DNA of 64,000 bases, from positions 744,001 through 808,000 of the forward strand of contig NZ_PVTK01000001.1 in assembly GCF_003002925.1 (NCBI RefSeq), read 5' to 3'. Position numbers and translations under genes: made by a program. Source of the DNA: Vreelandella songnenensis. GTDB lineage: Bacteria > Pseudomonadota > Gammaproteobacteria > Pseudomonadales > Halomonadaceae. Below are positions 2,754-40,182 of the stretch, in pieces (the stretch's first letter is position 1; the number at the start of each line of letters is the position of its first letter). The notes beneath the pieces were generated by a model. The model worked only from the letters and a program-made list of their open reading frames with translations, had not been told where the DNA came from and did not search any database.

Positions 2754-2762
2754 TGGGCTCTC

Positions 2763-3817: not shown

Positions 3818-3910
3818 CACCGATCTCCCAAGAATAAATAAGCGGGCGTGCAAGACCCGCAGTAACGGCGCGCATTATGCCATCATGGCGCACCATCAGC
3901 GAGCCGCAGA

Positions 3911-5059: not shown

Positions 5060-5349
5060 GGTATCTCCCAGAAAGCATAGCGGTGGCATCCGTTCGTCTG
5101 CCGCCTACTTTAGCATTTAACCCACTACCTAACTTCACGACCTCTAGCCGTTGGCAGCGTAGGCGAAATCGGCATGGACGCTTATCATAGATGCTTTCCT
5201 GTTTTAGCAGGCTAAACAGGGAGCTAGCGATAGAACATCGGTCTTGACCGTATCGAGACAATAAAATTATGGCGAGCGGATTAAAGCTTGCGTACTAACG
5301 TCCGATATTTAGATAAGTTAATTTACCTGTTTTTTCATTTGGAAACCCG
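5060..5349. promoter_or_regulatory. Divergent intergenic region with an inverted repeat
   Basis: This 290-base gap separates the minus-strand acyltransferase gene from the plus-strand histidine kinase gene, so it should hold both promoters. It becomes AT-rich toward the kinase start. An imperfect 23-base inverted repeat (CCTGTTTTAG / CTAAACAGG arms) lies at 5198-5220 and could be an operator or a transcript hairpin. I cannot place -35/-10 boxes with confidence. No small gene is credible here. Confidence 0.5.
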
Positions 5350-25538: not shown

Positions 25539-25604
25539 ATAGTTACTACACGGATTAGTTTCTACACGGTATTAGTTACTACACCGTATTAGTTACTACA
25601 CGGT
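25539..25604. repeat. Four tandem 17-bp repeats spanning the aminotransferase stop codon
   Basis: The unit ATTAGTTACTACACGGT occurs four times in a row with few changes (15-base first copy at 25539-25553, then 25554-25570, 25571-25587 and 25588-25604). The last copy contains the TAG stop and final codons of the aminotransferase gene, so the end of the gene has been duplicated outward into its 3' untranslated region. On the coding strand every unit carries TAGTAACTAA-like stop triplets. Confidence 0.9.
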
Positions 25605-27029
25605 AAAGGCGGCTTCCTGTCGACCGGTCTTGAGGTCCCCCGAGCGGGTCAGCTCATCGGTGACGCGGTCGATGGCGCGCTTGGCACGGCCGATCATGTC
25701 ATCAACTTCACCGCGGTTGATGGTCAAGGGCGGCGCGAAGCCGAGAATATCGCCCTGGGGCATGGCACGGGCAATCAGGTTCTCCTCCATCGCCGCGGCG
25801 GCGACCCGCGGGCCGACTTTCAAGGCCGGGTCGAAGTGCAGGCGCTGCCTGGCATCCGGCGAGAACTCAAGCGCTGCCATCAGGCCGACGCCGCGCACGT
25901 CACCCAGCAGCGGATGGCCCTCGAAATGGGCTTTCAACTGGTTTTGGAAGTAGGCACCGGTTTCAGCGGCGTTGCCCACCAAGTTCTCGCGCTCGATGAT
26001 ATCCAGGTTGGCGATACCGGCAGCGCAGCCCAGCGCATGGCCCGAGTAGGTCCAGCCGTGGCCGATGGGGCCGAATTCGCCGGTGCCGTCTTCGAGCACT
26101 TTCCACACCTTGTCGCCGACGATCACCCCGGAGAGCGGCTGGTAGGCGCTGGTCAGTCCCTTGGCGATGGTGACCAGATCAGGCTTCATGTTGTAGTGGT
26201 GGCTGCCGAAGTCGGAGCCGGTACGGCCAAAGCCGCACACCACTTCATCGGCGATCAACAGCACATCGTATTTTTCGAGCACCGCCTGAATGGCGTCCCA
26301 GTAGCCTTCCGGGGGCGGTACGATACCGCCGGTGCCCAGCACCGGCTCGCCGATGAACGCCGCCACGGTGTCCGGTCCTTCTTCGAGAATCATGGCTTCG
26401 AGCTTCTCGGCGCAGAAGGAGGAGAACTCGAGCTCGGTCATGCCGTGCTGCTCAGCGGCGCGCAGATAGTAGTGCGGCGCCTCGGTATGGCGAATGGTGT
26501 CGATGGGCAGGTCGAAATGATCGTGGAAGGCCTTCAGGCCGGTCAGCGAGCCTGAGGCAATGCCCGAGCCGTGGTAGCCGCGCATCCGCGAGATGACCTT
26601 TTTCTTCTGCGGGCGGCCCAGGACGTTGTTGTAGTAGCGCACGATCTTGAGCTGGGTTTCATTGGCGTCGGAGCCCGACATGCCATAGTAGACCTTGGAC
26701 ATGTTCATGCCGGCGATTTTCAGGACGCGCTCGGAAAGCTCGATCTGCGGCTCGTTGGAGTGGCCTACGTAGGTGTGGTAGTAGGAGAGCTCCAGCGCCT
26801 GCTTGTAGATCGCCTCGGCGACTTCGGTGCGACCGTAGCCGATGTTGACGCAGTAAAGCCCGGCGAAGCCGTCGATGAACTCGCGCCCATCCTTGTCCAC
26901 GATGTTGATGCCCTTGCCGCCGGTAATCACGCGGCCCGGCGCGTCGCCGTGGGCAAAATCACGCAGGTGGGTAGAGGCGTGGAACGTCACCTTGCGGTCG
27001 CGTTCGATCAGGTCCTGATGCTGGCTCAT
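25596..27029 (-). CDS. Class III PLP-dependent aminotransferase (omega-amino acid:pyruvate type)
   Basis: The 477-residue enzyme is a fold type I, class III transaminase. Seen are GFAGLYCVNIGYG, the substrate-pocket YYHTYVGHSNEP, YYGMSGSDANETQLK, the PLP-binding IADEVVCGFGRTG (D261) and the Schiff-base lysine in VTIAKGLTSAYQPLSG (K290). Relatives use GABA, beta-alanine, taurine or diamines as donors, often with pyruvate as acceptor. A semialdehyde dehydrogenase gene lies 185 bases upstream on the same strand, so an omega-amino acid is probably converted to its semialdehyde and then oxidised. The last codons lie in a tandem 17-base repeat. Confidence 0.9.
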   Translation of the reverse strand: MSQHQDLIERDRKVTFHASTHLRDFAHGDAPGRVITGGKGINIVDKDGREFIDGFAGLYCVNIGYGRTEVAEAIYKQALELSYYHTYVGHSNEPQIELSERVLKIAGMNMSKVYYGMSGSDANETQLKIVRYYNNVLGRPQKKKVISRMRGYHGSGIASGSLTGLKAFHDHFDLPIDTIRHTEAPHYYLRAAEQHGMTELEFSSFCAEKLEAMILEEGPDTVAAFIGEPVLGTGGIVPPPEGYWDAIQAVLEKYDVLLIADEVVCGFGRTGSDFGSHHYNMKPDLVTIAKGLTSAYQPLSGVIVGDKVWKVLEDGTGEFGPIGHGWTYSGHALGCAAGIANLDIIERENLVGNAAETGAYFQNQLKAHFEGHPLLGDVRGVGLMAALEFSPDARQRLHFDPALKVGPRVAAAAMEENLIARAMPQGDILGFAPPLTINRGEVDDMIGRAKRAIDRVTDELTRSGDLKTGRQEAAFTV

Positions 27030-27100
27030 GGCGTTCTCTCTGTACGATAAACCTCCCCGATCAGCGGGGCGGCATTTGAAATATTGCGGGCTTCACGGCG

Positions 27101-27189
27101 GGTCAGGCACACGCGAACACGCTGTAAACCCATCCCTGGGCGCTCGGCTTTTTCATCCCTGAAAAAGACGGTTCGCTTAGTGCCTGACC
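27101..27189. repeat. Structured intergenic element (outer inverted repeat enclosing two hairpins)
   Basis: Outer arms GGTCAGGCACACGCGAAC (27101-27118) and GTTCGCTTAGTGCCTGACC (27171-27189) are inverted repeats. Between them are two small hairpins, CCCA-TCCC-TGGG (27129-27140) and CTTTTTCA-TCCC-TGAAAAAG (27148-27167), both with the same TCCC loop. The layout resembles dispersed palindromic intergenic elements (REP/BIME or ERIC-like) of gammaproteobacteria. It lies between two co-oriented genes and would form a three-way junction in their transcript. No second copy is in the window. Confidence 0.7.
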
Positions 27190-27214
27190 AGCCTCTACCG
27201 TGATTTTATCCGCA

Positions 27215-28723
27215 CTAGCTTCCCGACACCGAACCCAGCGCGCCGAGACAGTAGTACTTGGTTTCGAGATACTCGTCGATGCCGGTGGCGCCGCCTTCGC
27301 GTCCAAGGCCGGACTGCTTCACGCCGCCAAAGGGTACCGGCGGGCCGGTCATCTTCACCGAGTTGACGCTGACCATACCGTACTCGAGGGCACGCATCAG
27401 CTTCCAGATACGGCGAATATCGTGGGTGTAGAGGTAGGCGGCCAGGCCGTACTCGGTGTCGTTGGCAAGCGCGATCACTTCCTCGTCGCTGCCGTAAGCG
27501 GTGATGCCGGCCACCGGGGCAAAGTTCTCCTCGCGCCAGACCTTCATCTGCGGTGTCACGCCGGTCAGCAGTACCGGCATGAAGAAGTTCTCGCCCGGCG
27601 CCTGGCGCTGGTCGCCCAGTATCTGAGTCGCCCCACGGGAAATCGCATCATCGACGATCGCTGCGGCCTTCTCTACCGCCTGGCGATGAATCAAGGGGCC
27701 GAGATCGACCTCACCCTTGAGCCCGTTACCCACGGTGAGCGCGGCCATGCGCTCGGTAAACGCGGTAACGAAAGCGTCGTGAATGGATTCGTGCACCAGA
27801 ATGCGGTTGGCTGCGAGACAGTCCTGGCCGGCGGTCTGAAACTTGGCGTCCACCGCAGCGTAAGCTGCCTCCTCGGGGTCCATGTCCGGGCCGACGATAA
27901 ACGGCGCGTTGCCCCCAAGCTCCAGGGAAAGACGCTTGACGGTACTGGCGCTCTGCTCCATGAGCAGACGCCCCACGCGGGTGGAACCGGTAAACGAGAG
28001 CGCCCGAATGCGCGGCTCGCTGCACAGGATCTTCGATACCTCGGCAGGCTCGCCCAGCACCACATTGAAGATACCCGCCGGAATGCCCGCGCGCTCGGCA
28101 AGCTCTGCAAGCGCCAGCGCCGAAAACGGCGTCTCGTTGGCAGGCTTGACGATCACCGGGCAGCCAGCGGCCAGCGCAGCAGCGGCCTTGCGGGTAATCA
28201 TCGCCAGCGGGAAGTTCCAGGGGGTGATCATTGCCGCGATCCCCACCGGCTCCTTGAGGGTGCCCAGCGACGCATTGGGGATATGGCTCGGAATCGTCTC
28301 GCCGTAGGTGCGCTTGCCCTCTTCGGCAAACCAGCGCACGAAGCTTGCGCCGTACTCCACCTCGCCGCGGGCATCGGGCAGCGGCTTGCCCTGCTCCAGG
28401 GTCATGATAGTGGCGAGGTCTTCACGGTTGGCCTGAATCAGGTCATACCAGGCCAGCAGGCGCTCGCAGCGCTCGTCGGCCCGCAGGGCGCGCCACTGCA
28501 CGAAAGCGATTTCTGCAGCATCTACCGTGGCGGTAATCTGGTTGCCCTCCAGCAGCGGTATATGGCCGATGACAGCATTGGTAGCCGGGTCGACGACGGC
28601 CTCTTCACGCCCAGCATCGCCGTGAGTCCACTTGCCGTTGATATAGGCGTACTGGCGAAACAGCCGAGGGTCGTTGAGCCGCTTTGTCAGGGCAGTCGAT
28701 AGTTGGGTTGATAGCATCGTCAT
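27215..28723 (-). CDS. NAD(P)-dependent succinate-semialdehyde dehydrogenase-like enzyme
   Basis: This 502-residue aldehyde dehydrogenase belongs to the GabD group. Motifs are ITPWNFPLAMITRKAAAALAAGC, FTGSTRVGRLLMEQ, the general base in LSLELGGNAPF (E268), and the catalytic cysteine C302 in FQTAGQDCLAANR. PFGGVKQSGLGREGG near the end is also typical. GGAG lies six bases before the ATG. The aminotransferase gene follows on the same strand after a structured repeat element. Succinate semialdehyde from GABA is the first guess; aspartate semialdehyde (a DoeC-like role in ectoine breakdown) is a serious alternative because DoeC enzymes are of this family. Confidence 0.9.
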   Translation of the reverse strand: MTMLSTQLSTALTKRLNDPRLFRQYAYINGKWTHGDAGREEAVVDPATNAVIGHIPLLEGNQITATVDAAEIAFVQWRALRADERCERLLAWYDLIQANREDLATIMTLEQGKPLPDARGEVEYGASFVRWFAEEGKRTYGETIPSHIPNASLGTLKEPVGIAAMITPWNFPLAMITRKAAAALAAGCPVIVKPANETPFSALALAELAERAGIPAGIFNVVLGEPAEVSKILCSEPRIRALSFTGSTRVGRLLMEQSASTVKRLSLELGGNAPFIVGPDMDPEEAAYAAVDAKFQTAGQDCLAANRILVHESIHDAFVTAFTERMAALTVGNGLKGEVDLGPLIHRQAVEKAAAIVDDAISRGATQILGDQRQAPGENFFMPVLLTGVTPQMKVWREENFAPVAGITAYGSDEEVIALANDTEYGLAAYLYTHDIRRIWKLMRALEYGMVSVNSVKMTGPPVPFGGVKQSGLGREGGATGIDEYLETKYYCLGALGSVSGS

Positions 28724-29086
28724 GAAAATCTCCGTTGGCTAACGCCACTGGGCGGCTGCAAGCCCGCATCACTATATTGCAAGCAGTGCCGACTACCGTT
28801 TTCTTGATGTGTCTAGGCTACGGCAGAGTCGTCATGAAGTGTTTTTGAATAGCGTACTCGTACAGGCAACTTTTTTGGCAAACAGCACTGAAAGTGACCT
28901 TTTTTTTGGCAAGCCAGCGATCATCTTGACCAAGCCTGTCAACGCAAACCTCTTACGCCCAATACCAATAAAACTTTAATACTCACTCTACCGCCAATAT
29001 CGGGTAAGCTTATTTGCGTGTGGCTAACCTCCCTGCCCATCCTCAACCTCATTAAAATTAGCCATGATCAGCGCAGAGGCAGCGCC
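28724..29086. promoter_or_regulatory. Divergent promoter region with a direct repeat
   Basis: The region between the dehydrogenase (minus) and the diguanylate cyclase (plus) is AT-rich in its right half. TTTTTTGGCAA occurs twice, at 28871-28881 and 28902-28912, exactly 31 bases apart (about three helical turns), which is the kind of spacing seen at operators. In the opposite reading TTGCCA could be a -35 element of the dehydrogenase promoter. No gene is credible here apart from the possible upstream start at 29018. Confidence 0.45.
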
Positions 29087-30310
29087 GTGCATCGACTCTC
29101 TTATTACTACCAGCAGCTTTCACAGCCCGCCGATGAGACGAGCTCGGTACGCGACCAGTACGACCGCGACCGCCACGATGAGCGGTTACACTCACTCAAG
29201 CGCGTTTGCGGGTGGCTGGCGCTGTTCTATTTCACGTACACGCTGGTCGATATCTATTTGATTCCTGATGTTTCCATGCGCTCTTTTGCGCTGCGTTTTG
29301 GCCTGGTTGGACCGTCGACTCTGCTGCTGTTCGCCTATTTCAAACGTCCGGTTTCGATCCGTCGCAAGGAACTGGCCGCCGTATGTCAGGGGTGCCTCGG
29401 CGCGCTGGTGTGGTGCATGATCCTCATTTCCACCCAGACCCCCGATGTGCTGAACTACTACTACGCTGGTCTGGTTTTTATTCTGGTACTGACTATTGTG
29501 GCCACTCCCCCTTTCGAGCAGAGTTTATACGGCACCCTGTTGGTGTTTGCCGCGCTCTATACCACTATCTGGTTTTTACCTGGCGCGACGATGCATTACG
29601 TCCTTTTACATTTGTCAGTAGGAATACCCGTTACACTGTTATCGCTCATGGCCAACTATCGATTTTCCGCTGAATCGCTGCGTCTATATCTAGAAAAGCT
29701 CAGCGTTGATCAGCTGCGCCGGGAGTTGGCTCAGCGTAATCGTGAGCTGGAAAAGCTCTCTTTGATAGACCCCCTTACTGGCCTGGCAAACCGCCGCGCC
29801 CTGACAAACAGGATCAGCCAGTTAACCGACCAGGCTGGCGCGCCGAGTGAAATGGCCGTGGTCATTATCGATGTGGATCACTTCAAGGCATTTAATGACT
29901 TTTACGGTCATAGCGAGGGCGATAACTGCCTGTGTGCCGTCGCGGGCGCCATCCGCACGGCCTGTGGTACCAACGACCTGATATGCCGCTACGGCGGTGA
30001 AGAGTTCTTGGTACTTCACATCACGCCATTCTCCCCTGCCGCTAATGCTCGGGCGCTTGCGGAGAGTATCCGCGGGCGCATTGACTGTCTGGCCATGCCC
30101 CACCAACCCACCCAGAAGGGCCACGTTACCGTGAGCGTGGGCGTGTGCAGCGGCCTCCTAAGCGATGCAAGCCAGCTCAATACGTTAATCGAACACGCCG
30201 ACGAGGCGCTTTATCAGGCAAAACGCAAGGGCAGAAACCGCGTCGAAGAAAGCGCTTACAGCATTTTAATGACAACACAAAATCTACGTGCAGCTACCTG
30301 TAAAGAGTAG
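29087..30310 (+). CDS. Membrane-bound diguanylate cyclase (GGDEF)
   Basis: With the GTG at 29087 (GAGG seven bases upstream) the protein has 407 residues; the frame opens further upstream at a GTG at 29018 without a ribosome site. About six hydrophobic segments occupy the first 200 residues (WLALFYFTYTLVDIYLI onward), followed by a coiled linker and a GGDEF domain with LIDPLTGLANRRAL, VVIIDVDHFKAFND and an intact CRYGGEEFLVLH signature. It should make cyclic di-GMP. The position of the RxxD inhibitory site has GTND, so product inhibition there is probably lost. The input signal of the membrane domain is unknown. Confidence 0.9.
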   Translation: MHRLSYYYQQLSQPADETSSVRDQYDRDRHDERLHSLKRVCGWLALFYFTYTLVDIYLIPDVSMRSFALRFGLVGPSTLLLFAYFKRPVSIRRKELAAVCQGCLGALVWCMILISTQTPDVLNYYYAGLVFILVLTIVATPPFEQSLYGTLLVFAALYTTIWFLPGATMHYVLLHLSVGIPVTLLSLMANYRFSAESLRLYLEKLSVDQLRRELAQRNRELEKLSLIDPLTGLANRRALTNRISQLTDQAGAPSEMAVVIIDVDHFKAFNDFYGHSEGDNCLCAVAGAIRTACGTNDLICRYGGEEFLVLHITPFSPAANARALAESIRGRIDCLAMPHQPTQKGHVTVSVGVCSGLLSDASQLNTLIEHADEALYQAKRKGRNRVEESAYSILMTTQNLRAATCKE

Positions 30311-30624: not shown

Positions 30625-31704
30625 ATGAGTGCTTCACAATTCGATCAAATGATTCAAGAGTCGCAAGAGAAAGTTAAAGTGTCTAAAGCGAAGGTGTCTG
30701 CAGTAACCGCACAGATGGAATCAGCCAGAGACAAGATGGCCGCTGGCGAAGACGCTGATCTCGACATCGAAAACGCCACGCTGGACGACGTACAAAATCA
30801 CGCCGACTCGATGAATGCCAATATCGCCGAGCTGATCATGGGGCTTGACGATACAACGGCGGGATTTTCCCAAGACTTTGACCAAATGCGCAGCAAGAGC
30901 GGTTGGGAAAATTTCGTCGGCTTCTTTAGCAAGGGAAAGTCCGAGTCCATGCGCCAGGAGCGTATTCGCACGGCCAATATCGACGATAAGCTCCAGGACC
31001 TGATCTCCAAGTCGGATATTATCGTTAATCTGTTGCAAGACCAGTTGGAAACGCTTGAAGAGCAGCGCGAAAAAGTTCAGCAAAACTTGAGTAGCACGCT
31101 GGATGAGCGTGAAGCGACCGTTCAGGAGCTAGAGAGCGTGCGCGCAGAAATTCTGGCGCTCGATCCCAAAATCCTTGAGCTTGAAAACAAGATCGCCGTG
31201 GAGCAGGACGCTGGTGCGCGAACCCAGCTGGAAAACGCACTAGCCAGCCTAAACGAACAGTACAACGCGCTCGTCCAGCAGGAGCAGGTCAAGATTGCCA
31301 AGTCTCAGACGCTTGAGCGCTACGTTGAAAAAGGCAAGACCTGGGTCGACAGTCTGCAGAACCAGGCAGCGACCCAGATGGTACTGATCAACAAGCTGCA
31401 GACCGACACTCAGCAGCGCGTTGTGCTCTATGACGCACTGACCAAATCGCTCAAAACCGCCCAACAGCAGGAGGTCGCCCACCGTATCAACGAGATCGGT
31501 GTCGAAACGGACAAAGAGGCGCAAACCGCCATGGCCGGAATTGGCTCAGCCACCAACAAGCGTATGGCCGACATGATGGAATCCCACGAAGATAACATGG
31601 TCTTTGCGCGCGAAGTCATCGAGAAAAAAGCCAAGGCGGACGATCGCTTTGCCCGGCGCTTCTCGGCCATCGTCGAAAAACACGACAAAAACCTTTACGG
31701 ATAA
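30625..31704 (+). CDS. Coiled-coil protein of unknown function, first gene of the AAA+ cluster
   Basis: I do not recognise a named family with certainty. The 359 residues are almost entirely helix-forming, rich in Gln/Glu/Lys, with long heptad stretches (about 5-40, 115-240, 255-300). A short hydrophobic/aromatic patch followed by lysines (GWENFVGFFSKGK, residues 93-105) could be an amphipathic membrane-binding helix. There is no signal peptide or membrane span. The arrangement loosely recalls TelA-type tellurite-resistance proteins and PspA-like polymers, but this is structural analogy only. ATG 30625 has AAGGA upstream; a GTG at 30607 is in frame. It is followed by a hairpin at 31714 and five co-oriented genes. 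Confidence 0.85.
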   Translation: MSASQFDQMIQESQEKVKVSKAKVSAVTAQMESARDKMAAGEDADLDIENATLDDVQNHADSMNANIAELIMGLDDTTAGFSQDFDQMRSKSGWENFVGFFSKGKSESMRQERIRTANIDDKLQDLISKSDIIVNLLQDQLETLEEQREKVQQNLSSTLDEREATVQELESVRAEILALDPKILELENKIAVEQDAGARTQLENALASLNEQYNALVQQEQVKIAKSQTLERYVEKGKTWVDSLQNQAATQMVLINKLQTDTQQRVVLYDALTKSLKTAQQQEVAHRINEIGVETDKEAQTAMAGIGSATNKRMADMMESHEDNMVFAREVIEKKAKADDRFARRFSAIVEKHDKNLYG

Positions 31705-31713
31705 CCACGGCCC

Positions 31714-31738
31714 GCGGGACCGACTGCGCAGGTCCCGC
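31714..31738 (+). other. Hairpin between first and second genes of the AAA+ cluster
   Basis: Perfect 8-base-pair arms GCGGGACC and GGTCCCGC with a 9-base loop, ten bases after the coiled-coil gene stop. There is no T-run, so rather than a classic terminator it may be an RNA-stability or partial-attenuation element giving more of the first protein than of the rest. Confidence 0.55.
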
Positions 31739-31849
31739 AAAGCCATGAGAACTCCGTAACACAGCAGCGCGGGCACTTGCCCGCCCGGTGCCCACGCCCT
31801 GCTTGCGTTTCGCTAAAGGATGATTGAGGCAGCGCCTCGAAGGACCTCC

Positions 31850-32971
31850 ATGACAGAGCTCAGCCGCGACCATTCCAACCTGGCAGATGCCATGGCTTCG
31901 CGTCGCTACTTTCGCAAGTTTGACGATATTATCCACTACCTGGCGCGAACCGCCGTTACGCTTCAGGCAGAGGGCCAGCTCTCCAAGACACATACAAAGG
32001 TGTTATCAGACTACCTGCTGCGCCTTAACCGCTCTTTTAAGGCATTGAGCATGAAATATCTGCTCGTTGGCAGCGAGCGAAGCCCGCTGGTCAACGGTCT
32101 GACCATGGACCGGCGGGATAGCGGTTTCCCGGTGGCCACAGAGCTTTTGACCATGGGCAACGATGCCCAGCAGGCCGTGCTTCATCTGGCCAACCAGCCC
32201 TCGGCGCAGGCGCTGAAAAAGCAGATGCTTCATACCATCCTGACCGAGAGAAGGTCGCCGTCCCAGCTGCAGTTTGCGCTCTCCCAACGGCTTTACTACG
32301 AAACCTTGACAGAGGGGAATCTTTTCTGGTCGCGCAACGACCCGCAGTTTATCTTGCTGGACCCATCCGCCGAGGGGCGCCGCCAGTTTTTGTTGCACTG
32401 GGCGGTGTACGACAGCCAAGTCAACCTACCGGTTGTCTATCTCATGGAGGTCGAAGATACCGGAGATACGCCGCTGCCTTACGATCAAGGCCGCTGGCCG
32501 CAGGCGCAAATGCACCTGATGTCTCAGTCACTGGCGGGACTCAAGCTGCTGACCATTGCCCAAGGCTTTGACAAGGATTTCCGCGACCTACATCCCAAGC
32601 AGCTGCGTCGCTACCACATTGGTCCGATGTATTCATCAGCCTATACCCATCAGGCAGGACCGCTGCGCGAGGTGCTGGAGCAGGCGGCCACCCAGCCAGG
32701 GCAAGACTGGGCGCTGGCCTGGACTCTGGAGACTCTGGATAGCCATGAGGTTCGCGAGGAGCGCGCTGGCTGGTTCAGCAAAGTGGAGCGCGAAGTCTAC
32801 GCCCTTGATCCATTTGGTGGACAGGGGGCCGATACCGGCGCCACGCGTACCGAACGCGCGATCATTCTGCCCCAGCACCCCTTTCAAGTGCTCACCGAAC
32901 TCAACCCGCCGGGCTTTTTTGACGTTCGTAAATTCGTGGTGAGCACCAAGGGACAGGTACTCAGCTATTAG
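31850..32971 (+). CDS. Conserved-looking protein of unknown function, AAA+ cluster
   Basis: I do not recognise the family. The 373-residue protein appears soluble: a helical N-terminal part (about 1-150; SRRYFRKFDDIIHYLARTAVTLQAE, LKKQMLHTILTERRSP) and a mixed, more beta-rich C-terminal part (WAVYDSQVNLPVVYLMEVEDTGD, RAIILPQHPFQVLTELN). No signal peptide, membrane span or catalytic motif is evident. ATG 31850 follows GAAGGA; an in-frame ATG at 31820 lacks spacing for a ribosome site. It lies between the coiled-coil gene and the AAA+ ATPase gene, so a role as adaptor or partner of the ATPase is plausible but unproven. Confidence 0.85.
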   Translation: MTELSRDHSNLADAMASRRYFRKFDDIIHYLARTAVTLQAEGQLSKTHTKVLSDYLLRLNRSFKALSMKYLLVGSERSPLVNGLTMDRRDSGFPVATELLTMGNDAQQAVLHLANQPSAQALKKQMLHTILTERRSPSQLQFALSQRLYYETLTEGNLFWSRNDPQFILLDPSAEGRRQFLLHWAVYDSQVNLPVVYLMEVEDTGDTPLPYDQGRWPQAQMHLMSQSLAGLKLLTIAQGFDKDFRDLHPKQLRRYHIGPMYSSAYTHQAGPLREVLEQAATQPGQDWALAWTLETLDSHEVREERAGWFSKVEREVYALDPFGGQGADTGATRTERAIILPQHPFQVLTELNPPGFFDVRKFVVSTKGQVLSY

Positions 32972-33094
32972 CCCGGCGCGCGCTCGCGCCAGATACACAT
33001 TAGACACGTCAAGTCGGCTCGTGCGGTTATCCAGCACCGCCAGCCAGCACGAAATACTGTACTAGGGCCGGAGTGCCCTGCCAGCGAGGACACA

Positions 33095-35041
33095 ATGAGT
33101 TTGACCAGCGACCAGATGGAACTGCGCGAAGACGATATCCGCAAACACTATGCCGCCGCGACGGCCATGCTGGACGGTATCGACCACACCCCGCGCATCG
33201 CCAAACCCCAGGCTGCCCCCGCCGAAGCGGCCTCCGAACGCTCGCCGGGCATTGGCCATACCCGGCGGATGCGCTCCACCACCCCGGGGCTCGCAACCCG
33301 TTCCACGGCACGCCCGCAGGGCGTTCACCTGCGCGCGCGCATCGAGGATACAGAGGAGGAAGATCCGCTTATCTCGCCTCTTCAGGCAACGGCGCTGCAT
33401 CAGCTTCGCCGTGCGCTGGCCATTGCTCTTGCCGTTGGCGATAACTATGCCAACGCCTCGGGTCTTGCCGAGCTGAAACGTGCCAATCTGGCCGGCACTC
33501 TGGACGCCGGACGCAAGCGCGAGTTCAGCGAGCTGTTAGCCGGTGAGTCTCTTGCTGTAATGCACGTGTTCGCCAACGCCAGCGCCTATTTGCTGGCGCC
33601 ACACATTGGTGAGGTCAATGTCGAGATCGGCGAAGTCGAAGAACTGCTCACCGATAATGCCCCGCTGGCGCTCAACGGCGTTCTGTGGGAACTTGACCAG
33701 ACCCTGGCCCAGCACGCCACCGATGAGCCACGACTGCTGGCCACGCTGGGCGCCTTTGCCGAACAGTGCATGGAGAAAGTTGCCCTACGGGCGCAAAATG
33801 CTCCCCGGCTTGCAGCTTTCACCGACGCGGCATGGCACATCGAGTCGGACGACCTGACCCTGCGCGGCTTTGAGCCCGCCACCAAGGCCAAGTCGACAAC
33901 GCTGACCATGTCATTCAAAAAGCCCCACGAAGTAGTCGGCAACCATATCGCCAAGTACCAGTCGCTGCGCCTGTCCAAGATGATCATGGCCTACGACTTC
34001 GAACGGCGACTCAATCCCTTTGCCGAGCTTGGCGGGTTCATCTTCACCTTCATGGGCGACGGCAAGCCCGGCACAGGTAAGACGACGCTGATCCAGATGA
34101 TGGCGGGGCTTTTGAACGACTACTGCCAGGTAGCCGGCTACCCGTTTCGCTACCAGAACTTTGGTATCGACAACATCGACAGTTACCAGGGTAAATCCGG
34201 CCAGAACGCCAAATCTTTCATCAACAATCTGATGGACCCGAGCGTTATCGGTTTCGGCACGGTGGACGATATCGATCAGATTGCCGGAAAACGGGGCGAT
34301 AGCCACTCCTCGGCCGGTCAGCAAGAGGTGACGGCCGTGCTGATGGATGCCTTTGCCGGCGCCAATACGGTGGTGCGCGGCAACTGCACGTTCGGCATGT
34401 TCTCCAATTATCCGGAAAACGTCGACGATGCCCTGCGCCAGCGCTCCGGCGCACGCTTTCTGGTCGATGGGCCGCAGACCCGTGATGACTACATCGACGT
34501 CCTCCACCTGCTGCTTGGCAAGGGTGCCGACTTGCCACTGGGCGACCACGACCTCTACGCCGCTCAGGAGATTCAAAAAGCCGTTGCCAAGTCATTCGAT
34601 GCCCATAGCCGTCCGCAGGAAGAGCGGCTCCTGAATGTGTTTGACAAGGTCCACTCCCGGGTGGGCGAGCTCGACAACATCGCCAAGCTGGGCACCTATC
34701 TGAAAGCCATTCAGGAGGCCGATGAGCGCTTTACCGGCCGGGCGATCAAGAATATTACCGACGCGGTCAAGGTGCGTTCCATGGACTTCGAACTGCCCGA
34801 CGAGTGGATGGAGCATCCGGAGCTGTTTCTGCACCGGGACTATGATACCAAGCTTGGCATGATCAAGGAGCTGCGCCAGCCCATCACCGCCGAGATGGTG
34901 CTTCAGGAGATCAACCGCTACGCCGACAGCGAGTTCCGCTATTCAGGCAAGTCCGACGAAGCGGCTATCGAGCGGATGGTCCGTGACATGGGGCTGCAGG
35001 AGCAAGCCAAGCGACGCTATCTGCAGGGAGCCAACCCATGA
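33095..35041 (+). CDS. Vps4/katanin-like classic AAA+ ATPase with large N-terminal region
   Basis: The 648 residues have an N-terminal region of about 300 residues without recognised domain (Pro/Ala/Arg-rich at 30-80), then one AAA module. Walker A is GKPGTGKT (323-330); a pore-loop-like SYQGKSGQNAKSF (363-375) matches the KWxGESEK region of Vps4-class enzymes; Walker B is VIGFGTVDDIDQIAGKR (384-400); the second region of homology reads FSNYPENVDDALRQRSGARF (436-455) with sensor-1 N438 and candidate arginine fingers R448/R450. The usual Walker B glutamate is aspartate (D391-D392). GAGGA precedes the ATG. The stop overlaps the next gene by 4 bases. The ATPase call is secure; function is unknown. 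Confidence 0.9.
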   Translation: MSLTSDQMELREDDIRKHYAAATAMLDGIDHTPRIAKPQAAPAEAASERSPGIGHTRRMRSTTPGLATRSTARPQGVHLRARIEDTEEEDPLISPLQATALHQLRRALAIALAVGDNYANASGLAELKRANLAGTLDAGRKREFSELLAGESLAVMHVFANASAYLLAPHIGEVNVEIGEVEELLTDNAPLALNGVLWELDQTLAQHATDEPRLLATLGAFAEQCMEKVALRAQNAPRLAAFTDAAWHIESDDLTLRGFEPATKAKSTTLTMSFKKPHEVVGNHIAKYQSLRLSKMIMAYDFERRLNPFAELGGFIFTFMGDGKPGTGKTTLIQMMAGLLNDYCQVAGYPFRYQNFGIDNIDSYQGKSGQNAKSFINNLMDPSVIGFGTVDDIDQIAGKRGDSHSSAGQQEVTAVLMDAFAGANTVVRGNCTFGMFSNYPENVDDALRQRSGARFLVDGPQTRDDYIDVLHLLLGKGADLPLGDHDLYAAQEIQKAVAKSFDAHSRPQEERLLNVFDKVHSRVGELDNIAKLGTYLKAIQEADERFTGRAIKNITDAVKVRSMDFELPDEWMEHPELFLHRDYDTKLGMIKELRQPITAEMVLQEINRYADSEFRYSGKSDEAAIERMVRDMGLQEQAKRRYLQGANP

Positions 35042-36303
35042 AACGCCTGATCGACAAGGGGTTGATGTTTGGCAACTTGTTATACGTCGGCTCCCCGGCG
35101 CTTGTAGAGCGCTACGCCCGCGCACTCAAGCACCTCACCGGCCACACCACCGCGCTTGACGAATTCCATATCGATATCTCCGGCTACTCGCCGGAGATCG
35201 GCGATGAGCTGGAAGACCATTATTACCTCAATCATGGCGGTGTGAACCGGCAGTTCATCCTGCTCTCTACTGAACAGAAGTTCTGCCCGCTGCTCAACGC
35301 CCACTTCTCCACCAGCCACGATATCCTCAAGCGCTTCATGGAGGCCAACGAGCGCCAGCTGTTTGCGCTGATGGCCACCGATGCCGTGGCGGGGGAGCTC
35401 GAGAACTCGGTACTGGGCGTCGACTCCCCGGAGCAACTGTTCGATATTCGTCGGATTGTCATTGAAGCTGACACGACTACCGGTACCATCAAGGAATCAG
35501 CGCGCCTGGAAACAATGATCGACCGCTTCATGCAGGAGGAGGACAGCTGGTTCGACGATGAACTGATCGAGGCGATGGTGACAAGCGCCAAGCGCACCGG
35601 CAACATCACCCGCAACCCTCTGTCGCTTGAGCACCAAGCATTTGAGCAGAAGAATTTCTGGACAGCCCACTTTGGAGGACTCTATCTTTTTCAGGATGCG
35701 GACAGCTCGGCGCTGATTGCCAGTCGCGAAAAGCCACAGGGGCGATTTCCCGTCAAACGCATCTTGAGCCTTGGCGAGCGCAAGAAGATTGGCGAGTTTC
35801 TTCAGGAGAATCAGCTTGCCGAACCCATCGTTAAAGTTCGCGGCGCCGATGAGGCCCAGATTCTGCGCCAGAAAATGACCTTTGTACTGGCAGAGACACT
35901 AGTCAACAAGGGTATGGATGTCGCAGGCCTCTCCTACGCCGACGTGCGCCGCCTTGCCGCCCGTTACACCGATGATCTCCCTCCGGAGTACGAGGGCCTG
36001 GCCGCCATGGTGCGATGGGCTGAAACCCGCGGCGCTCGCCCCAAAATCGGCCTGGATGACCCGAGCTACTTTTATCTAATGCGGGCAACCCATGGCCCAG
36101 ATAGAGATCTGGTCAACATGCTGCTGGCCGAACTCTCGCCGCTGGATATGCGCCAGCTCTATATTTGCCACAAGAACGAGTTTTACCGCCAATACCGTGA
36201 CTGGCCCGACGCCAAGAAAGCCTACTGCGTCGACTTTCTGGCGCGGGAATACGTCGATAACAAAGCGGGGGCTCGCGCCTATCTGTTTGGCGATGAGGAA
36301 TAA
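35038..36303 (+). CDS. Conserved protein of unknown function translationally coupled to the AAA+ ATPase
   Basis: The 421-residue protein has no membrane segment or signal peptide. It begins MKRLIDKGLMFGNLLYVGSP and contains FHIDISGYSPEIGDELEDHYYLN, FILLSTEQKFCPLLNAHFS and a helical C-terminal half. I have an unverified impression that it belongs to a DUF family seen beside AAA ATPases in alphaproteobacteria (possibly DUF6638). Its ATG overlaps the ATPase stop by 4 bases, so the two proteins are probably made in step and may form a complex. No catalytic motif stands out. Confidence 0.87.
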   Translation: MKRLIDKGLMFGNLLYVGSPALVERYARALKHLTGHTTALDEFHIDISGYSPEIGDELEDHYYLNHGGVNRQFILLSTEQKFCPLLNAHFSTSHDILKRFMEANERQLFALMATDAVAGELENSVLGVDSPEQLFDIRRIVIEADTTTGTIKESARLETMIDRFMQEEDSWFDDELIEAMVTSAKRTGNITRNPLSLEHQAFEQKNFWTAHFGGLYLFQDADSSALIASREKPQGRFPVKRILSLGERKKIGEFLQENQLAEPIVKVRGADEAQILRQKMTFVLAETLVNKGMDVAGLSYADVRRLAARYTDDLPPEYEGLAAMVRWAETRGARPKIGLDDPSYFYLMRATHGPDRDLVNMLLAELSPLDMRQLYICHKNEFYRQYRDWPDAKKAYCVDFLAREYVDNKAGARAYLFGDEE

Positions 36304-36351
36304 GCGAGGCGGCGCGTGTGCTTGAGGTAATCATCTGACAAGGGGGCCAGC

Positions 36352-36618
36352 ATGCTGCACTTCATGCGCTTGGTCGTCATTTTTATCATGACGCTTGCCG
36401 TGCTGTATAACGCGCTGACATTTTATATGCGCACATGCCAGCGCTGGCGATTGAAGCGTCTCTGGCAGCACGAGCGCCCAGCGCTGGACCAGGCCACTTT
36501 TGTCAAACGCAGAATGGCTGAGTTCGAAGACTCTTTCAAACGCAAGCTGGCCCACTTGGTGTACGTGACCCCGCCAAGCGCCATCGTGCTCATCATCTAC
36601 GTGATCAACTTTATGTGA
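36352..36618 (+). CDS. Small two-helix membrane protein, AAA+ cluster
   Basis: This 88-residue protein has two hydrophobic segments, about residues 4-24 (LVVIFIMTLAVLYNAL) and 70-87 (PPSAIVLIIYVINF), with a charged, helical, basic loop between (CQRWRLKRLWQHERPAL..., KRRMAEFEDSFKRKL). A hairpin topology with the loop in the cytoplasm fits the positive charges. No family is recognised. A G-rich ribosome site precedes the ATG, 48 bases after the previous gene, and the DUF1523 gene follows after 10 bases. It may anchor the soluble cluster proteins to the inner membrane. Confidence 0.78.
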   Translation: MLHFMRLVVIFIMTLAVLYNALTFYMRTCQRWRLKRLWQHERPALDQATFVKRRMAEFEDSFKRKLAHLVYVTPPSAIVLIIYVINFM

Positions 36619-36628
36619 GGCGACCCTG

Positions 36629-37282
36629 ATGGTCTATTTAAAATGGTTTTTCCTGCTGGTCGTGTGGACGCTGATCGGGGCATTTTTGCACTACAGCCTG
36701 CCCCGCCACGATGTGGTGAGAATTGTGAACACCTATGAAGAGCGTATCGACCTAGATACCTGGACGCGCATCTTCTGGTCAGACCCCACCGAACAAGCCA
36801 AGACGCTGGTCAACCGTGATGTAAAATTCATTCAGGGGGTACGCCCCAACGGCAACAGCATCGTCTACCGCAATGAAGACACCGGATGGGGATGGCCGCC
36901 CTACTTCAAATTCGACACGGCCAACCTGCATACTGAAGCGAGCGATTCCATCTCGGCCCGCGACAATCCGCGCTGGGTCAGCGTCACCTATTTTGGCTGG
37001 CGCAACTTGTTTTTCACCATTTTCCCCAATGCGATCTCCATTACCCCTGTGGATGGCCCTGACGATAAGCCGTTCAACTGGTTCACGACGCTGTTTCTGA
37101 TCGTGTTTGGTGGCAGCGTGGGCTACGGCTACTACTGCTGGCGGCGCTTTCGTCGCAACCGGATCACACCAGCGCTTGAAGGAGTAGGAGATAATTTCAG
37201 TGCCGCTGGAGAGGCGTTCAGTCAGAAACGCGGCCGTTTTCAAGCCTGGTTGGATACCTGGAAGAGCAAGAAAAGGCGCTAA
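36629..37282 (+). CDS. DUF1523 family membrane protein, last gene of the AAA+ cluster
   Basis: The 217-residue protein has an N-terminal membrane helix (about 3-22), a central domain of about 125 residues, a second membrane helix (about 150-170, TLFLIVFGGSVGYGYYCW) and a basic cytosolic tail. The central segments VVRIVNTYEERID, NRDVKFIQGVRPNG, YRNEDTGWGWPPYFKFDTANL and SIFPNA-like FTIFPNAISITPVD match the DUF1523 family as I know it. With this topology the conserved domain is periplasmic. Function is unknown. It closes the six-gene cluster and converges on doeX. Confidence 0.85.
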   Translation: MVYLKWFFLLVVWTLIGAFLHYSLPRHDVVRIVNTYEERIDLDTWTRIFWSDPTEQAKTLVNRDVKFIQGVRPNGNSIVYRNEDTGWGWPPYFKFDTANLHTEASDSISARDNPRWVSVTYFGWRNLFFTIFPNAISITPVDGPDDKPFNWFTTLFLIVFGGSVGYGYYCWRRFRRNRITPALEGVGDNFSAAGEAFSQKRGRFQAWLDTWKSKKRR

Positions 37283-37305: not shown

Positions 37306-37776
37306 TCAGTCGACGAGTTCAATAGGCAGTGGTGCCCGCTTGACCGTCTTGGTCACGATATAGGTGCAGTAACGTTCGATGCCCACCTCCGACACCAGCC
37401 AAGCGTCCATTAACCGCTGGTAGCTGTCGATGCTGCGGGCTTCGAACTTCACCAGATAATCGACCCCGCCGCCGACCGCCACGCACTCGGTGACGTCCGG
37501 GGTTTCCATCACCAGCGCTTCAAAACGCGCAAAGCTTTCGGCGTTGTGCGCTTTCAGCTCGATCTGCACCCACACCGGATTACGCGGCACCAGCACATCG
37601 GCATTGATACGTGCGGTGTAGCCCTCGATGACCCCGGCCTTTTCCAGGCGCTTGACGCGCTCCCAGCAGGGGCTGATCGACAGGTTGATCGCCTCGGCCA
37701 GTCGGGACTTGGTGATGCGCCCGTCCCGGGAGAGGATAGCGAGAATGTTCAGATCATAGCGGTCAAGTTTCATCAT
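37306..37776 (-). CDS. doeX: Lrp/AsnC-type regulator of ectoine degradation, DoeX
   Basis: This 156-residue protein has the Lrp/AsnC plan: helix-turn-helix (YDLNILAILSRDGRITKSRLAEAINLS, SPCWERVKRLEKAG) and RAM domain (VDYLVKFEARSIDSYQRLMD). It starts 8 bases after the doeB stop, with its GGAGG ribosome site inside the end of doeB, as in the doeABX operon of Halomonas elongata. DoeX there binds the promoter region of the ectoine-degradation genes. The ATGATG start could be either codon. Co-occurrence with doeA and doeB makes the assignment strong. Confidence 0.92.
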   Translation of the reverse strand: MMKLDRYDLNILAILSRDGRITKSRLAEAINLSISPCWERVKRLEKAGVIEGYTARINADVLVPRNPVWVQIELKAHNAESFARFEALVMETPDVTECVAVGGGVDYLVKFEARSIDSYQRLMDAWLVSEVGIERYCTYIVTKTVKRAPLPIELVD

Positions 37777-37784
37777 GCCTGGGG

Positions 37785-38801
37785 CTACGCCTCCAGGCGG
37801 TCGACAACGTCGGCAATCACCGCAATGGTGTCGCCCATGTTGACCAGCGCCGGGGCACGGCGCGCGATCAGAATGCCATCGCGCTCGGCGCGGTAGGCCA
37901 CCGGCTCGCTGCCCGTGCGGGTCATGTCATAAACGTAGGCCAGCACCTGCCCCTGGGTCACGGCATCGCCCAGCGCCACGGTCAGCTCCAGCACCCCGGT
38001 GTGCTGGCTCTGCACGTAGCAGCTGGCGTCCGGCATATCGAGATAGACCTGACCACCTTCCGGCATGGCTACCTCGCCCTCCATCAGCCCGTAATGGATC
38101 AGAAAATTGCGCACGCCGCGCTCGGTGATCGCCATGCTCTGGGGCGTGGAGGTGCCGCCACCGCCCAGTTCGGTGGCCACGAATACCTTGCCCTGGCGCT
38201 CGCAGGCCGTGTCAAACAGCTTTTCGGCGTCGAGCTCGAACATCACCATGGCGTAGGGCGCGCCAAACGCCTTGGCGCCGTCAAGCGCGGCCTGCTGTTG
38301 GGCCTTGTCATCGAGCACATGCGAGGCGCCAAAAGGCAGAATATCCAGGGTGCGCCCGCCGGAGTGCAGATCCAGCACCACGTCACTCATGGGCACCAGT
38401 ACGCGGGTGAAGTAGTCGGCAATCTGCAGCGTCACGCTGCCGTCGGGGTCGCCGGGGAAGCTGCGGTTGAGGTTGCCCTTATCCATGGGCGAGGTGCGTG
38501 CGCCTGCCATCACCGCCGGGGTATTCATGCAGGGCACGATGATGACCCGCCCGCTGACGTCTTGCGCTTTCAGCGCATTGGCAAGCTTGAGTAGCGAGGT
38601 AATGCCCTCGTACTCGTCACCGTGGTTGCCGCCGGTCAGAAGTGCTGTAGGGCCGTCGCCATTCTTGACCACCGTGATCGGGATCATTACCGCGCCCCAG
38701 GCAGAAATATCGGTCGAGATGGGCAGCTTCAGAAAGCCGTGCTGCACACCGTCAGCATCAAAATCGACGGTCGCGGAAATCGGGCTCGGTCGCAGGGTCA
38801 T
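37785..38801 (-). CDS. doeB: N-alpha-acetyl-L-2,4-diaminobutyrate deacetylase DoeB
   Basis: DoeB removes the acetyl group from N-alpha-acetyl-diaminobutyrate, the second step of ectoine breakdown. The 338-residue protein is of the AstE/AspA zinc carboxypeptidase-like family: zinc ligands in LLTGGNHGDEYEG (H60, E63) and VVLDLHSGG (H146), plus NLNRSFPGDPDGS. ATELGGGG and the C-terminal beta-rich domain fit the succinylglutamate-desuccinylase group. GAAGGA precedes the ATG. It lies 18 bases after doeA and 8 bases before doeX, the H. elongata order. Confidence 0.94.
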   Translation of the reverse strand: MTLRPSPISATVDFDADGVQHGFLKLPISTDISAWGAVMIPITVVKNGDGPTALLTGGNHGDEYEGITSLLKLANALKAQDVSGRVIIVPCMNTPAVMAGARTSPMDKGNLNRSFPGDPDGSVTLQIADYFTRVLVPMSDVVLDLHSGGRTLDILPFGASHVLDDKAQQQAALDGAKAFGAPYAMVMFELDAEKLFDTACERQGKVFVATELGGGGTSTPQSMAITERGVRNFLIHYGLMEGEVAMPEGGQVYLDMPDASCYVQSQHTGVLELTVALGDAVTQGQVLAYVYDMTRTGSEPVAYRAERDGILIARRAPALVNMGDTIAVIADVVDRLEA

Positions 38802-38819
38802 GATAAATCCTTCAATTGG

Positions 38820-40019
38820 TTACTTGACGAACAGCTGACGCGGGAAGTTGGCAAGCGTCTCGCAGCCCGTTTCGGTGATCAGGATGCTTTCGGTAATCTC
38901 CAGGCCCCAGTCCTCCACCCAGAGTCCTGGCATGAAGTGAAACGTCATGCCGGGTTTCAGAATCGACTCATCCGAGGGCCGCAGGCTCATGGTGCGCTCG
39001 CCCCAGTCCGGCGGGTAGGAAATCCCGATGGGGTAGCCGCAGCGCGCCCCGCCCCGATCAAAGCCGTACTTGTCCATCGCCGCCCCCAGGGCCATGGCGA
39101 TATCCGCGGTGCGATTGCCAGGCTTGGCCACCGCCAGACCGTTTTCGATGCCTTCCAGCAGGGCGGACTCTGCGCGAATGAAATCGATCGGCGGGCGCCC
39201 TAGAAACACGGTGCGCGACATCGGTGCGTGGTAGCGCTTGAACACCCCGGCAATCTCGAAAAACGTACCCTCGCCTTCGCGAAACGGCGTGTCGTCCCAG
39301 GTCAGGTGCGGGGCCGCTGCATCCTTGCCGGTGGGCAGCATGGGTACGATGGCGGGGTAATCGCCGCCATGCACCTTGCCGTTCTCGTCCACAAAACCTT
39401 CGATGCCGACGCGGTAGATTTCCGAGACCAGCTTGCTCTTGGGCAGGCCAGGCTCGATCACTTCCAGGATGCGCGAGTGCATGCCCTCGACAATCTTGCC
39501 GGCCACCCGCATGTAGGCAATTTCCTGAGGCGACTTGATCGCCCGGCACCAGTTCACCAACGCATTGGCGTCGATGAAGCGGGCGTGGGGCAGCTCGCGC
39601 AGAAGGCTCTGGTAGGCCTTGGCAGAGAAGTAGTAGTTGTCCATCTCCATGCCCACCACGCCGGTATGCCAGCCCCGGTCAGGCAGAATCGACTGGGCCA
39701 GATAGTCCATGGGGTGCATGTCCGGATTCTGGACGTAGTAATCCGGGTAATAGGTGATGTTGGATGGATCGATCCAGCAGGTGCGCAGCGCCCCGTTGGC
39801 ATCCATACGTCGGCCAAACCACACCGGCTCGCCTTCAAGGCCAACCAGTACGCACTGGTGAACATAGAATGACCAGCCGTCATAGCCGGTCAGCCATGCC
39901 ATGTTGGAAGGGTCGCTGACGATCAGTACATCAATGCCGCGGCCGGCCATTTCAGCGCGCACCTTCCACAGGCGGCTTGCATACTCTTCACGCGTAAAGG
40001 GCAGGGAAACCTGAGTCAT
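38820..40019 (-). CDS. doeA: Ectoine hydrolase DoeA
   Basis: DoeA opens the ectoine ring to N-acetyl-diaminobutyrate. The enzyme has the creatinase/M24 peptidase fold: IDVLIVSDPSNMAWLTGYDGWSFYVHQ at the N-terminus and HGGDYPAIVPMLPTG, YHAPMSRTVFLG, GYPIGISYPPDWGERTMSL and FHFMPGLWVEDWGLEITES in the C-terminal domain. I start it at 40019, giving 399 residues, close to the known enzyme; an in-frame start at 40037 adds six residues. It is first in a doeA-doeB-doeX operon. The later steps (doeC, doeD) are not adjacent. Confidence 0.94.
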   Translation of the reverse strand: MTQVSLPFTREEYASRLWKVRAEMAGRGIDVLIVSDPSNMAWLTGYDGWSFYVHQCVLVGLEGEPVWFGRRMDANGALRTCWIDPSNITYYPDYYVQNPDMHPMDYLAQSILPDRGWHTGVVGMEMDNYYFSAKAYQSLLRELPHARFIDANALVNWCRAIKSPQEIAYMRVAGKIVEGMHSRILEVIEPGLPKSKLVSEIYRVGIEGFVDENGKVHGGDYPAIVPMLPTGKDAAAPHLTWDDTPFREGEGTFFEIAGVFKRYHAPMSRTVFLGRPPIDFIRAESALLEGIENGLAVAKPGNRTADIAMALGAAMDKYGFDRGGARCGYPIGISYPPDWGERTMSLRPSDESILKPGMTFHFMPGLWVEDWGLEITESILITETGCETLANFPRQLFVK

Positions 40020-40182
40020 CGGGCAACTCGCCATCAAAGATCACTAAGTACCGATGCGCGTTTGTATTACGCCAAGCACCGAGCCACAGGATCGACCTGG
40101 ATTGCCGCTTGAGGGCCGCCAACGTCGTCTTAGCCCGATACTAGCACCACCCCTTGGTTGCGGGTCAAAGCCTTTATGCACC

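Follow-up and report, generated by a model that had tools for sequence, protein, structure and literature searches.

A cluster of six genes around an AAA ATPase

The stretch analysed here, referred to below as the window, comprises 64,000 nucleotides (nt) of the genome of Vreelandella songnenensis (contig NZ_PVTK01000001.1, positions 744,001 to 808,000). It contains a cluster of six genes, P1 to P6, built around an ATPase of the AAA family. Based on the list of open reading frames (ORFs) and the sequence, all six lie on the plus strand and span window positions 30625-37282:

P1, 30625..31704, + strand: 359 amino acids (aa), predicted all-helical coiled-coil protein, first core gene, with a conserved aromatic/basic segment at residues 92-105
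P2, 31850..32971, + strand: soluble alpha/beta protein, core gene, 373 aa from ATG 31850
P3, 33095..35041, + strand: 648 aa, classic-clade AAA ATPase by PF00004 and motifs, core gene
P3/P4 junction, 35038..35041, + strand: 4-nt overlap ATGA, site of a variable cargo slot in relatives, empty here
P4, 35038..36303, + strand: 421 aa, DUF6638, core gene, overlapping P3 by 4 nt
P5, 36352..36618, + strand: 88 aa, small membrane protein with two transmembrane (TM) helices by hydropathy, branch-specific
P6, 36629..37282, + strand: 217 aa, DUF1523, N-terminal TM helix and probable periplasmic domain, branch-specific

The ORF of P2 also permits a start at ATG 31820 (31820-32971, a 383-aa form), and the majority of aligned homologues begin at the ATG equivalent to 31850, which suggests the shorter form. 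In Pfam, P4 and P6 scored far above the cut-offs of DUF6638 (PF20343, 3.8e-186, 619.7 bits versus 27) and DUF1523 (PF07509, 5.3e-67, 225 bits versus 23), and P3 matched AAA (PF00004, 8.3e-12). The Pfam search gave no family over the cut-off for P1, P2 or P5. Scans of P1-P6 against PADLOC, PHROGs and NCBIfam returned weak or generic matches, the strongest (6.6e-7) being between P3 and a PHROG without an assigned function. Hydropathy analysis indicates two hydrophobic helices in P5, one clear N-terminal helix in P6 and none in P1-P4. These results agree with an earlier note on this DNA, which had described six co-oriented genes here, including a soluble protein of unknown family (P2), a soluble protein coupled to the ATPase (P4), a two-helix membrane protein (P5) and a DUF1523 protein (P6).

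Conservation and distribution of the core

The order and strand of P1-P2-P3-P4 were kept in all 82 loci fetched around matches to P4 (DUF6638). These loci, chosen for sufficient room on their contigs, comprise two named loci, 20 of the 25 other genomes of the phylum search, 57 further genomes of family f55 and three of the window's genus. Complete cores were found in 81 of the stretches first fetched. The remaining stretch (L082) ended inside P3, and the apparent loss of P1 and P2 was an edge effect, as both are in place in a wider stretch of that genome. Across the phylum, PF20343 is present in 26 of 398 genomes, and the P3 profile (E ≤ 1e-15) matches exactly those 26. Thus, from both the uniform order and the shared set of genomes, we conclude that the co-occurrence of P1-P4 is far beyond chance. 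The earlier note had staked its proposal on the genes co-occurring elsewhere, which for P1-P4 they do; the six-gene unit that it drew has to be narrowed, since P5 and P6 are branch-specific and lie outside the invariant core.

Both P5 and P6 are present in 76 of the 82 loci, P6 alone in one, and in five a DUF2333 protein with one or two hydrophobic helices takes the place of P6 (Pfam-tested in one of the five, the others being its BLAST relatives). Megaplasmid loci of Vibrio parahaemolyticus and V. vulnificus, the two of four Vibrio records opened, have P1-P4 without P5 or P6, at identities of ~39, 31, 42 and 27-28% for P1, P2, P3 and P4, respectively. On Sinorhizobium meliloti pSymB, P1-P4 occur together with an annotated endonuclease gene, an IS4-like transposase and DUF2333. 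A locus of the same class as the f55 genomes (L159) has P1-P4 and P6. In the gammaproteobacterial genome G1007, the locus L158 (6457-13388) has P1-P4 at ~22-31% identity, with P2 recognised by profile only (profile E values 2e-13, 1.3e-7, 1.4e-63 and 8.4e-47 for P1 to P4), followed by a 2-TM and then a 1-TM protein. It is the most divergent version and the sole carrier among 24 genomes of its order, and it could serve as a root for the core families. Membrane proteins thus accompany the core in the fetched loci other than those of Vibrio, consistent with the conserved and apparently undescribed system around a classic AAA protein that had been proposed.

The distribution is patchy. The operon occurs in 112 of 248 genomes of family f55, 5 of 82 genomes of the window's genus, 2 of 321 genomes of the window's class (the window's own counted) and 4 of 240 genomes of the class of G067. 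We infer that family f55 is Rhodobacteraceae-like and family f51 Rhizobiaceae-like.

The P3 ATPase departs from the classic Walker B motif

The assignment of P3 to the classic clade of AAA+ ATPases in the earlier note is borne out. Besides the PF00004 match, P3 has a Walker A motif (residues 321-330), an aromatic pore loop 1 (SYQGKS, 363-368), a sensor-1 asparagine and the arginines of the second region of homology (RQR, 448-450), and K329, Y364, Q365, G366, N438, R448 and R450 are invariant across all 84 P3 sequences. The departure lies in Walker B (TVDDID, 389-394). The residue following the Walker-B aspartate is normally the catalytic glutamate, and here the pair is D391-D392, instead of the usual DE, in all 84 sequences; the divergent P3 of L158 likewise has DD (FDDID).

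The closest profile match of P3 in the PDB is an i-AAA protease domain (7.7e-5), followed by Rpt2, katanin, Afg2, fidgetin and Pex6, all classic AAA proteins. No Vps4 chain is among the 31 PDB profile matches at E ≤ 10, and Pfam gave no MIT or Vps4_C match to the 648 residues at E ≤ 1, although a very divergent MIT domain in residues 1-290 could escape that search. With neither domain matched, and with nearest PDB relatives other than Vps4, the label "Vps4-like" that had been given to P3 means no more than "classic AAA". The invariant Walker-B aspartate also speaks against the specific sense of the label.

P1 is predicted to be a long helical protein and P2 lacks clear structural relatives

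The AlphaFold2 (AF2) model of P1 predicts helices at residues 3-39, 52-98, 105-192 and 196-352, with a mean predicted local distance difference test (pLDDT) score of 71. The aromatic/lysine amphipathic segment described earlier, SGWENFVGFFSKGK, exists at residues 92-105, and E95 and F101 within it are invariant across nine divergent P1 proteins. Its amphipathic character is less evident: the hydrophobic moment is modest (0.28-0.41), the strongest in P1 being 0.59-0.67 at the C-terminus (residues 328-358). In the model, the segment sits at a low-confidence turn between the second and third helices.

The fold of P1 matches generic helical bundles such as syntaxin, STAT, MSP1 and AhlC, with Z ≤ 14.4, unremarkable for helical models, and the fold search gave nothing at E ≤ 0.001. 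No entry of the ESCRT-III (endosomal sorting complex required for transport III) or PspA families was among the best 50 P1 matches listed in either fold search, which excludes nothing. P1 gave no Snf7 or PspA_IM30 (PF04012) Pfam match at E ≤ 1, and the hhalign probability against PspA was 1.6% on shallow alignments; identification of P1 as PspA or Snf7 is therefore unsupported. TelA, an idea formed by eye, was rejected (no PF05816 match at E ≤ 1, hhalign probability 0.2% on shallow alignments), and the window's own genome has no PF05816 match. These profile comparisons lend no support to kinship of P1 with PspA or TelA, although a very distant relation could escape them. The host genome carries a separate PspA, on contig C6.

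These data bear on a strict bacterial ESCRT-III/Vps4 or phage shock protein (Psp) type system, in which P1 would be a divergent Snf7/PspA polymer and P3 its Vps4. Such a system would fit the predicted all-helical P1 with its very long helices, the classic AAA type of P3 with its aromatic pore loop, and reports of bacterial PspA/Snf7 beside AAA ATPases in the part consulted of Ravi et al. 2024 (PMC11237479). Given that none of Snf7, PspA_IM30, MIT and Vps4_C matched, that P1 aligned so poorly to PspA, that the best PDB relatives of P3 are other than Vps4 and that the genome already has a PspA, we consider this explanation very improbable.

P2 is predicted with high confidence (383-aa form, pLDDT 91, predicted template modelling score 0.89). 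Foldseek gave no match at E ≤ 0.001 against PDB structures or against viral structures, where the best match was 8.5e-3 with template modelling (TM) scores <0.1, and a sequence search of the PDB gave one match, judged to be chance. VIA gave a top Z of 5.2, with tunnelling-fold (T-fold) enzymes (urate oxidase, dihydroneopterin aldolase) at Z ~4-5 over residues 185-347, a lead judged too weak for use. Solved structures thus offer no clear match to this confidently predicted protein.

The junction between P3 and P4 is a hypervariable slot

Junction length was taken as the distance between the matched stretches of neighbouring core genes, with a threshold of 240 bp. L113 and L114, second copies of the named Halomonas loci L035 and L036, were omitted from the slot counts, giving 80 loci, and retained among the 84 P3 sequences. 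Junctions of at least 240 bp were found between P3 and P4 in 59 of 80 loci, between P1 and P2 in 33 of 79, between P2 and P3 in 6 of 79 and between P4 and P5 in 0 of 74. The P3-P4 junction is therefore a hypervariable slot. Because gene calling with a codon model overlooked AT-rich genes in the slots, ORFs were taken by length alone, with the consequence that shadow ORFs inflate the counts.

Within the P3-P4 slot, ORFs of at least 150 aa number 34 on the sense strand versus four antisense. In 26 of the 34 sense ORFs, GC content is 7.6-23.2 percentage points below that of P3 at the same locus. These AT-rich ORFs are fitted closely between their neighbours. In 19 of the 26, a start codon in frame lies no more than 15 nt from the stop codon of P3. 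At the other end, 21 stop no more than 15 nt from the start of P4, as placed by the beginning of its matched stretch, and 16 of the 26 overlap P4 by exactly 4 nt.

By content, the 80 slots hold a small membrane family (25 loci), nuclease-, Abi- or HEPN-like genes (15), other cargo (19) or none (21). The small membrane family, with two or three predicted helices and 28 matches in the 25 loci, occurs within the fetched stretches only in the P3-P4 slot and only on the sense strand. The 15 loci of the second group comprise AbiJ_NTD4 (two), putAbiC (one, and two BLAST relatives), DUF559 (three), DUF3825 (one), DUF4145/HEPN-like domains (three weak matches and one BLAST relative), HNH (one weak match) and an HATPase/DrmA fragment (one). 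The small membrane family and the recognisable cargo never occur together (hypergeometric P = 5e-5, uncorrected for relatedness). Over the 79 tips of the P3 tree, slot state changed at least 27 times; when the labels were shuffled 500 times, the mean was 36 and the lowest value 27. This suggests that turnover is fast, with some inheritance.

AbiJ and HEPN-like domains in P3-P4 slots, along with a single case of a Fic gene in the P2-P3 slot of L056, are what might be expected if the system were toxin-antitoxin-like or interbacterial, with a toxin encoded in the slot and its antidote by a core gene. Four conserved core genes are, by comparison, large for an antidote and are kept when the slot is empty, and we consider it very improbable that the system is of this kind.

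Several single loci deserve mention. The largest P3-P4 insert, 5.9 kb in L082 (G589; oriented positions 1352-6592), contains a sulfotransferase-like gene together with an ORF of 1314 aa, the presumed source of beta-helix/RTX matches, and its GC content is close to that of P3. A four-member family of soluble proteins of 250-290 aa is found in slots of L070, L081, L083 and L086; the L070 protein has no Pfam or PADLOC match, and that of L081 matches only PADLOC REase_II, at 0.002. On S. meliloti pSymB (L118, 11106-12851), the IS4-like transposase lies within the P3-P4 slot, adjoining the annotated endonuclease-domain gene. The P1-P2 junction is a second variable slot that holds mostly small 1-2-TM proteins differing in sequence; in L062 (oriented positions 1561-2220) it has, judged by eye, a pair consisting of an 80-aa Phd/YefM-looking and a 156-aa PemK-looking protein. 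A hairpin 3' of P1 was considered as an expression-ratio device and set aside, as it lay above nearly all shuffles in only 9 of 79 loci.

Slots are enriched in conflict-type genes

We scanned every sense ORF of 120 aa or longer in the three slots (57, of which 46 are from P3-P4) against Pfam and PADLOC. With the limit lowered to 80 aa, the slots have 98 sense ORFs; the other 41, shorter than 120 aa, were outside the batch scans, and two of them were scanned separately. As a control, 57 ORFs drawn at random from 230 flanking ORFs were scanned in the same way. At E ≤ 1e-5, ten PADLOC models matched in the slots, with one ORF each (best 5.2e-27), and none in the flanks (best 6.8e-5). Flanking genes are mostly ordinary metabolic genes among the 25 of 81 Pfam families listed. 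The slots are enriched in conflict-type genes and their surroundings are not, in a comparison where the control ORFs are longer (mean 390 aa versus 221 aa) and relatedness is uncorrected.

Horizontal gain in Halomonas

In the tree of 84 P3 sequences, the copies from Halomonas group as a single clade (support 1.0) nested in f55, with a support of 0.96 at the node where the two nearest f55 sequences join. Six operon-free relatives reveal the corresponding site: doeX adjoins doeC in three, only a GGDEF gene lies between them in two, and one has another insert of 9.6 kb. From the nested clade and these operon-free sites, we conclude that Halomonas gained the operon horizontally, between doeC and doeX. 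No match to P3 was found in any phage record or viral contig searched, and prophage or viral origin of the operon was rejected.

In the window, the operon is flanked by doeD/doeC-looking genes (25596-28723) and doeX/doeB/doeA-looking genes (37306-40037), which we take to be genes of ectoine degradation; the doe names are tentative assignments. The doeC-doeX junction is plastic in Halomonas. A GGDEF gene (diguanylate cyclase-like by eye) lies at 29018-30310, between doeC and P1. It is kept without P1-P6 in L152 and L153, and no match to it was found in L035, L048 and L112, the other Halomonas loci with the operon that were checked.

Possible functions: exchangeable effectors or a housekeeping machine

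The favoured reading, held tentatively and at a little less than an even chance, is an AAA machine that is linked to the membrane, uses interchangeable effectors and probably serves in phage or envelope conflict. P1-P4 would together form a single machine in the cytoplasm, driven by ATP and held at the inner membrane via P5 and P6 or, in other branches, via other membrane proteins. The P3 ring would most likely grip and remodel a helical partner through its central pore, the long coiled coil of P1 being the likeliest substrate, and P2 and P4 would likely be adaptors or regulators. The core would sense or assemble, and the exchangeable gene between P3 and P4, usually one, would act as the effector, the whole being a conflict system directed at phage or at envelope attack. 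Since the slot of the window's own copy is empty, that copy would act through P5 and P6 or through an unlinked gene, or would have a core role only.

A housekeeping envelope or osmotic machine has a substantial, somewhat smaller probability in our estimate. P1-P6 would maintain an inner-membrane or cell-wall-linked assembly, and the P3-P4 slot would be merely a permissive site, one in which selfish or defence genes become established since an insert at that point does no harm and is expressed well. Such a role would accommodate the persistence of P6 or another membrane protein in most branches, the location of the Halomonas copies in an apparent osmolyte (ectoine degradation) locus and the diversity of the cargo.

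Several observations weigh against exchangeable effectors, and some of them favour housekeeping directly. The core is retained in 21 of 80 loci that are free of cargo, including all Halomonas loci, and it must therefore work without cargo or be incomplete there. No defence-type family was recognised in 19 of the 59 filled slots, and 25 hold the membrane family of unknown role. Among the recognisable cargo, the DUF4145 matches and the HNH match (1e-3) are below cut-off and DrmA is represented only by a fragment. Five of the ten PADLOC models are PDC-S04, some possibly concerning one protein, and matches to PDC-S04, PDC-S24 and PDC-S37 were counted over pooled slot ORFs, unassigned to single slots. 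P1-P6 themselves have no match in PADLOC-DB 2.0.0 at E ≤ 1e-5 (the strongest are generic AAA matches, TRIP13 at 3.9e-4 and IetA at 1.2e-3), the sampled flanks are not defence-rich, which sets the locus apart from a classical defence island, and the phage and viral searches for P3 were likewise negative. As for mechanism, the Walker-B aspartate may make ATP hydrolysis slow or absent, and the remodelling of P1 by P3 is proposed purely by analogy with how AAA proteins work.

Nevertheless, we prefer an AAA platform with exchangeable effectors to an envelope machine that has a housekeeping role and a slot for captured genes. The patchy distribution, with 5 of 82 genomes in the window's own genus and 112 of 248 in f55, would be unusual for a housekeeping machine. 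Cargo is restricted to certain junctions, with none at P4-P5, and a dedicated small membrane family occupies the slot at 25 loci and occurs nowhere else in the fetched stretches. The frequent 4-nt overlaps exceed what tolerance requires: a site that merely tolerates insertion has no need for so exact a fit of foreign genes, which suggests that synthesis of the slot products is matched to that of P3 and P4, presumably by translational coupling, and that they work together with P3 and P4.

A more specific version of the effector platform is possible but doubtful. P1-P4 would then be an AAA-driven platform for immunity at the inner membrane of bacteria, so far undescribed, whose core senses phage or envelope attack and then licenses the swappable P3-P4 effector. 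P1 would be a polymer that is remodelled, the aspartate-based Walker B would be tuned to slow, switch-like ATP turnover, and the small membrane proteins and the Abi, HEPN and nuclease genes would be alternative effectors of one system.

The observation in the earlier note is therefore confirmed, and is stronger than first seen, while its Vps4/ESCRT analogy is only partly supported. The likely kind of function has changed, because relatives have a variable slot at the P3-P4 junction, a feature invisible in the window. This slot is the most interesting result, as it makes function testable, and the conflict and envelope alternatives can be separated by simple deletions. If the slot genes are effectors, DUF6638 together with a DD-type AAA would be a key with which to search alphaproteobacteria, Halomonas and Vibrio for a new conflict system, and candidate effectors could be read directly from the slot. 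If the core is an envelope machine, it would still be an AAA system of which our literature search yielded no account, and one whose Walker B departs from the norm in a conserved way.

Comparison with known systems

Pfam assigns no function to PF20343 (DUF6638), PF07509 (DUF1523) or PF10095 (DUF2333). Our literature search found nothing on DUF6638 or PF20343; the papers found for DUF1523 are unrelated by title, and the one found for DUF2333 concerns the type VI secretion system. In a broader search, no title or abstract showed a P1-P4 system.

The cluster resembles ESCRT-III/Vps4 (Cdv) systems in having a classic-clade AAA protein beside a helical coiled-coil protein, with membrane partner genes. 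It differs from them in the lack of MIT, Vps4_C and Snf7 matches, in the Walker-B aspartate, in the additional core genes P2 and P4 and in the variable slot. The nearest parallel for the core is provided by Psp/PspA operons with AAA partners, which, in the part consulted of PMC11237479, combine coiled-coil, AAA and small membrane proteins; P1, in contrast, has no PspA match, and the main text of that paper does not mention DUF6638, DUF1523 or DUF2333.

For the slot, the relevant comparison is with bacteriophage exclusion (BREX) loci. P1-P6 have no BREX match in Pfam or PADLOC, the core here is much smaller, and the main text of PMC12839542 (NAR 2026) does not mention DUF6638 or DUF1523. In the part consulted of that paper, however, differing nuclease effector genes are described as embedded in a conserved, ATPase-bearing core locus, and BREX loci with such embedded auxiliary effectors are the nearest parallel for the idea of an exchangeable gene between P3 and P4.

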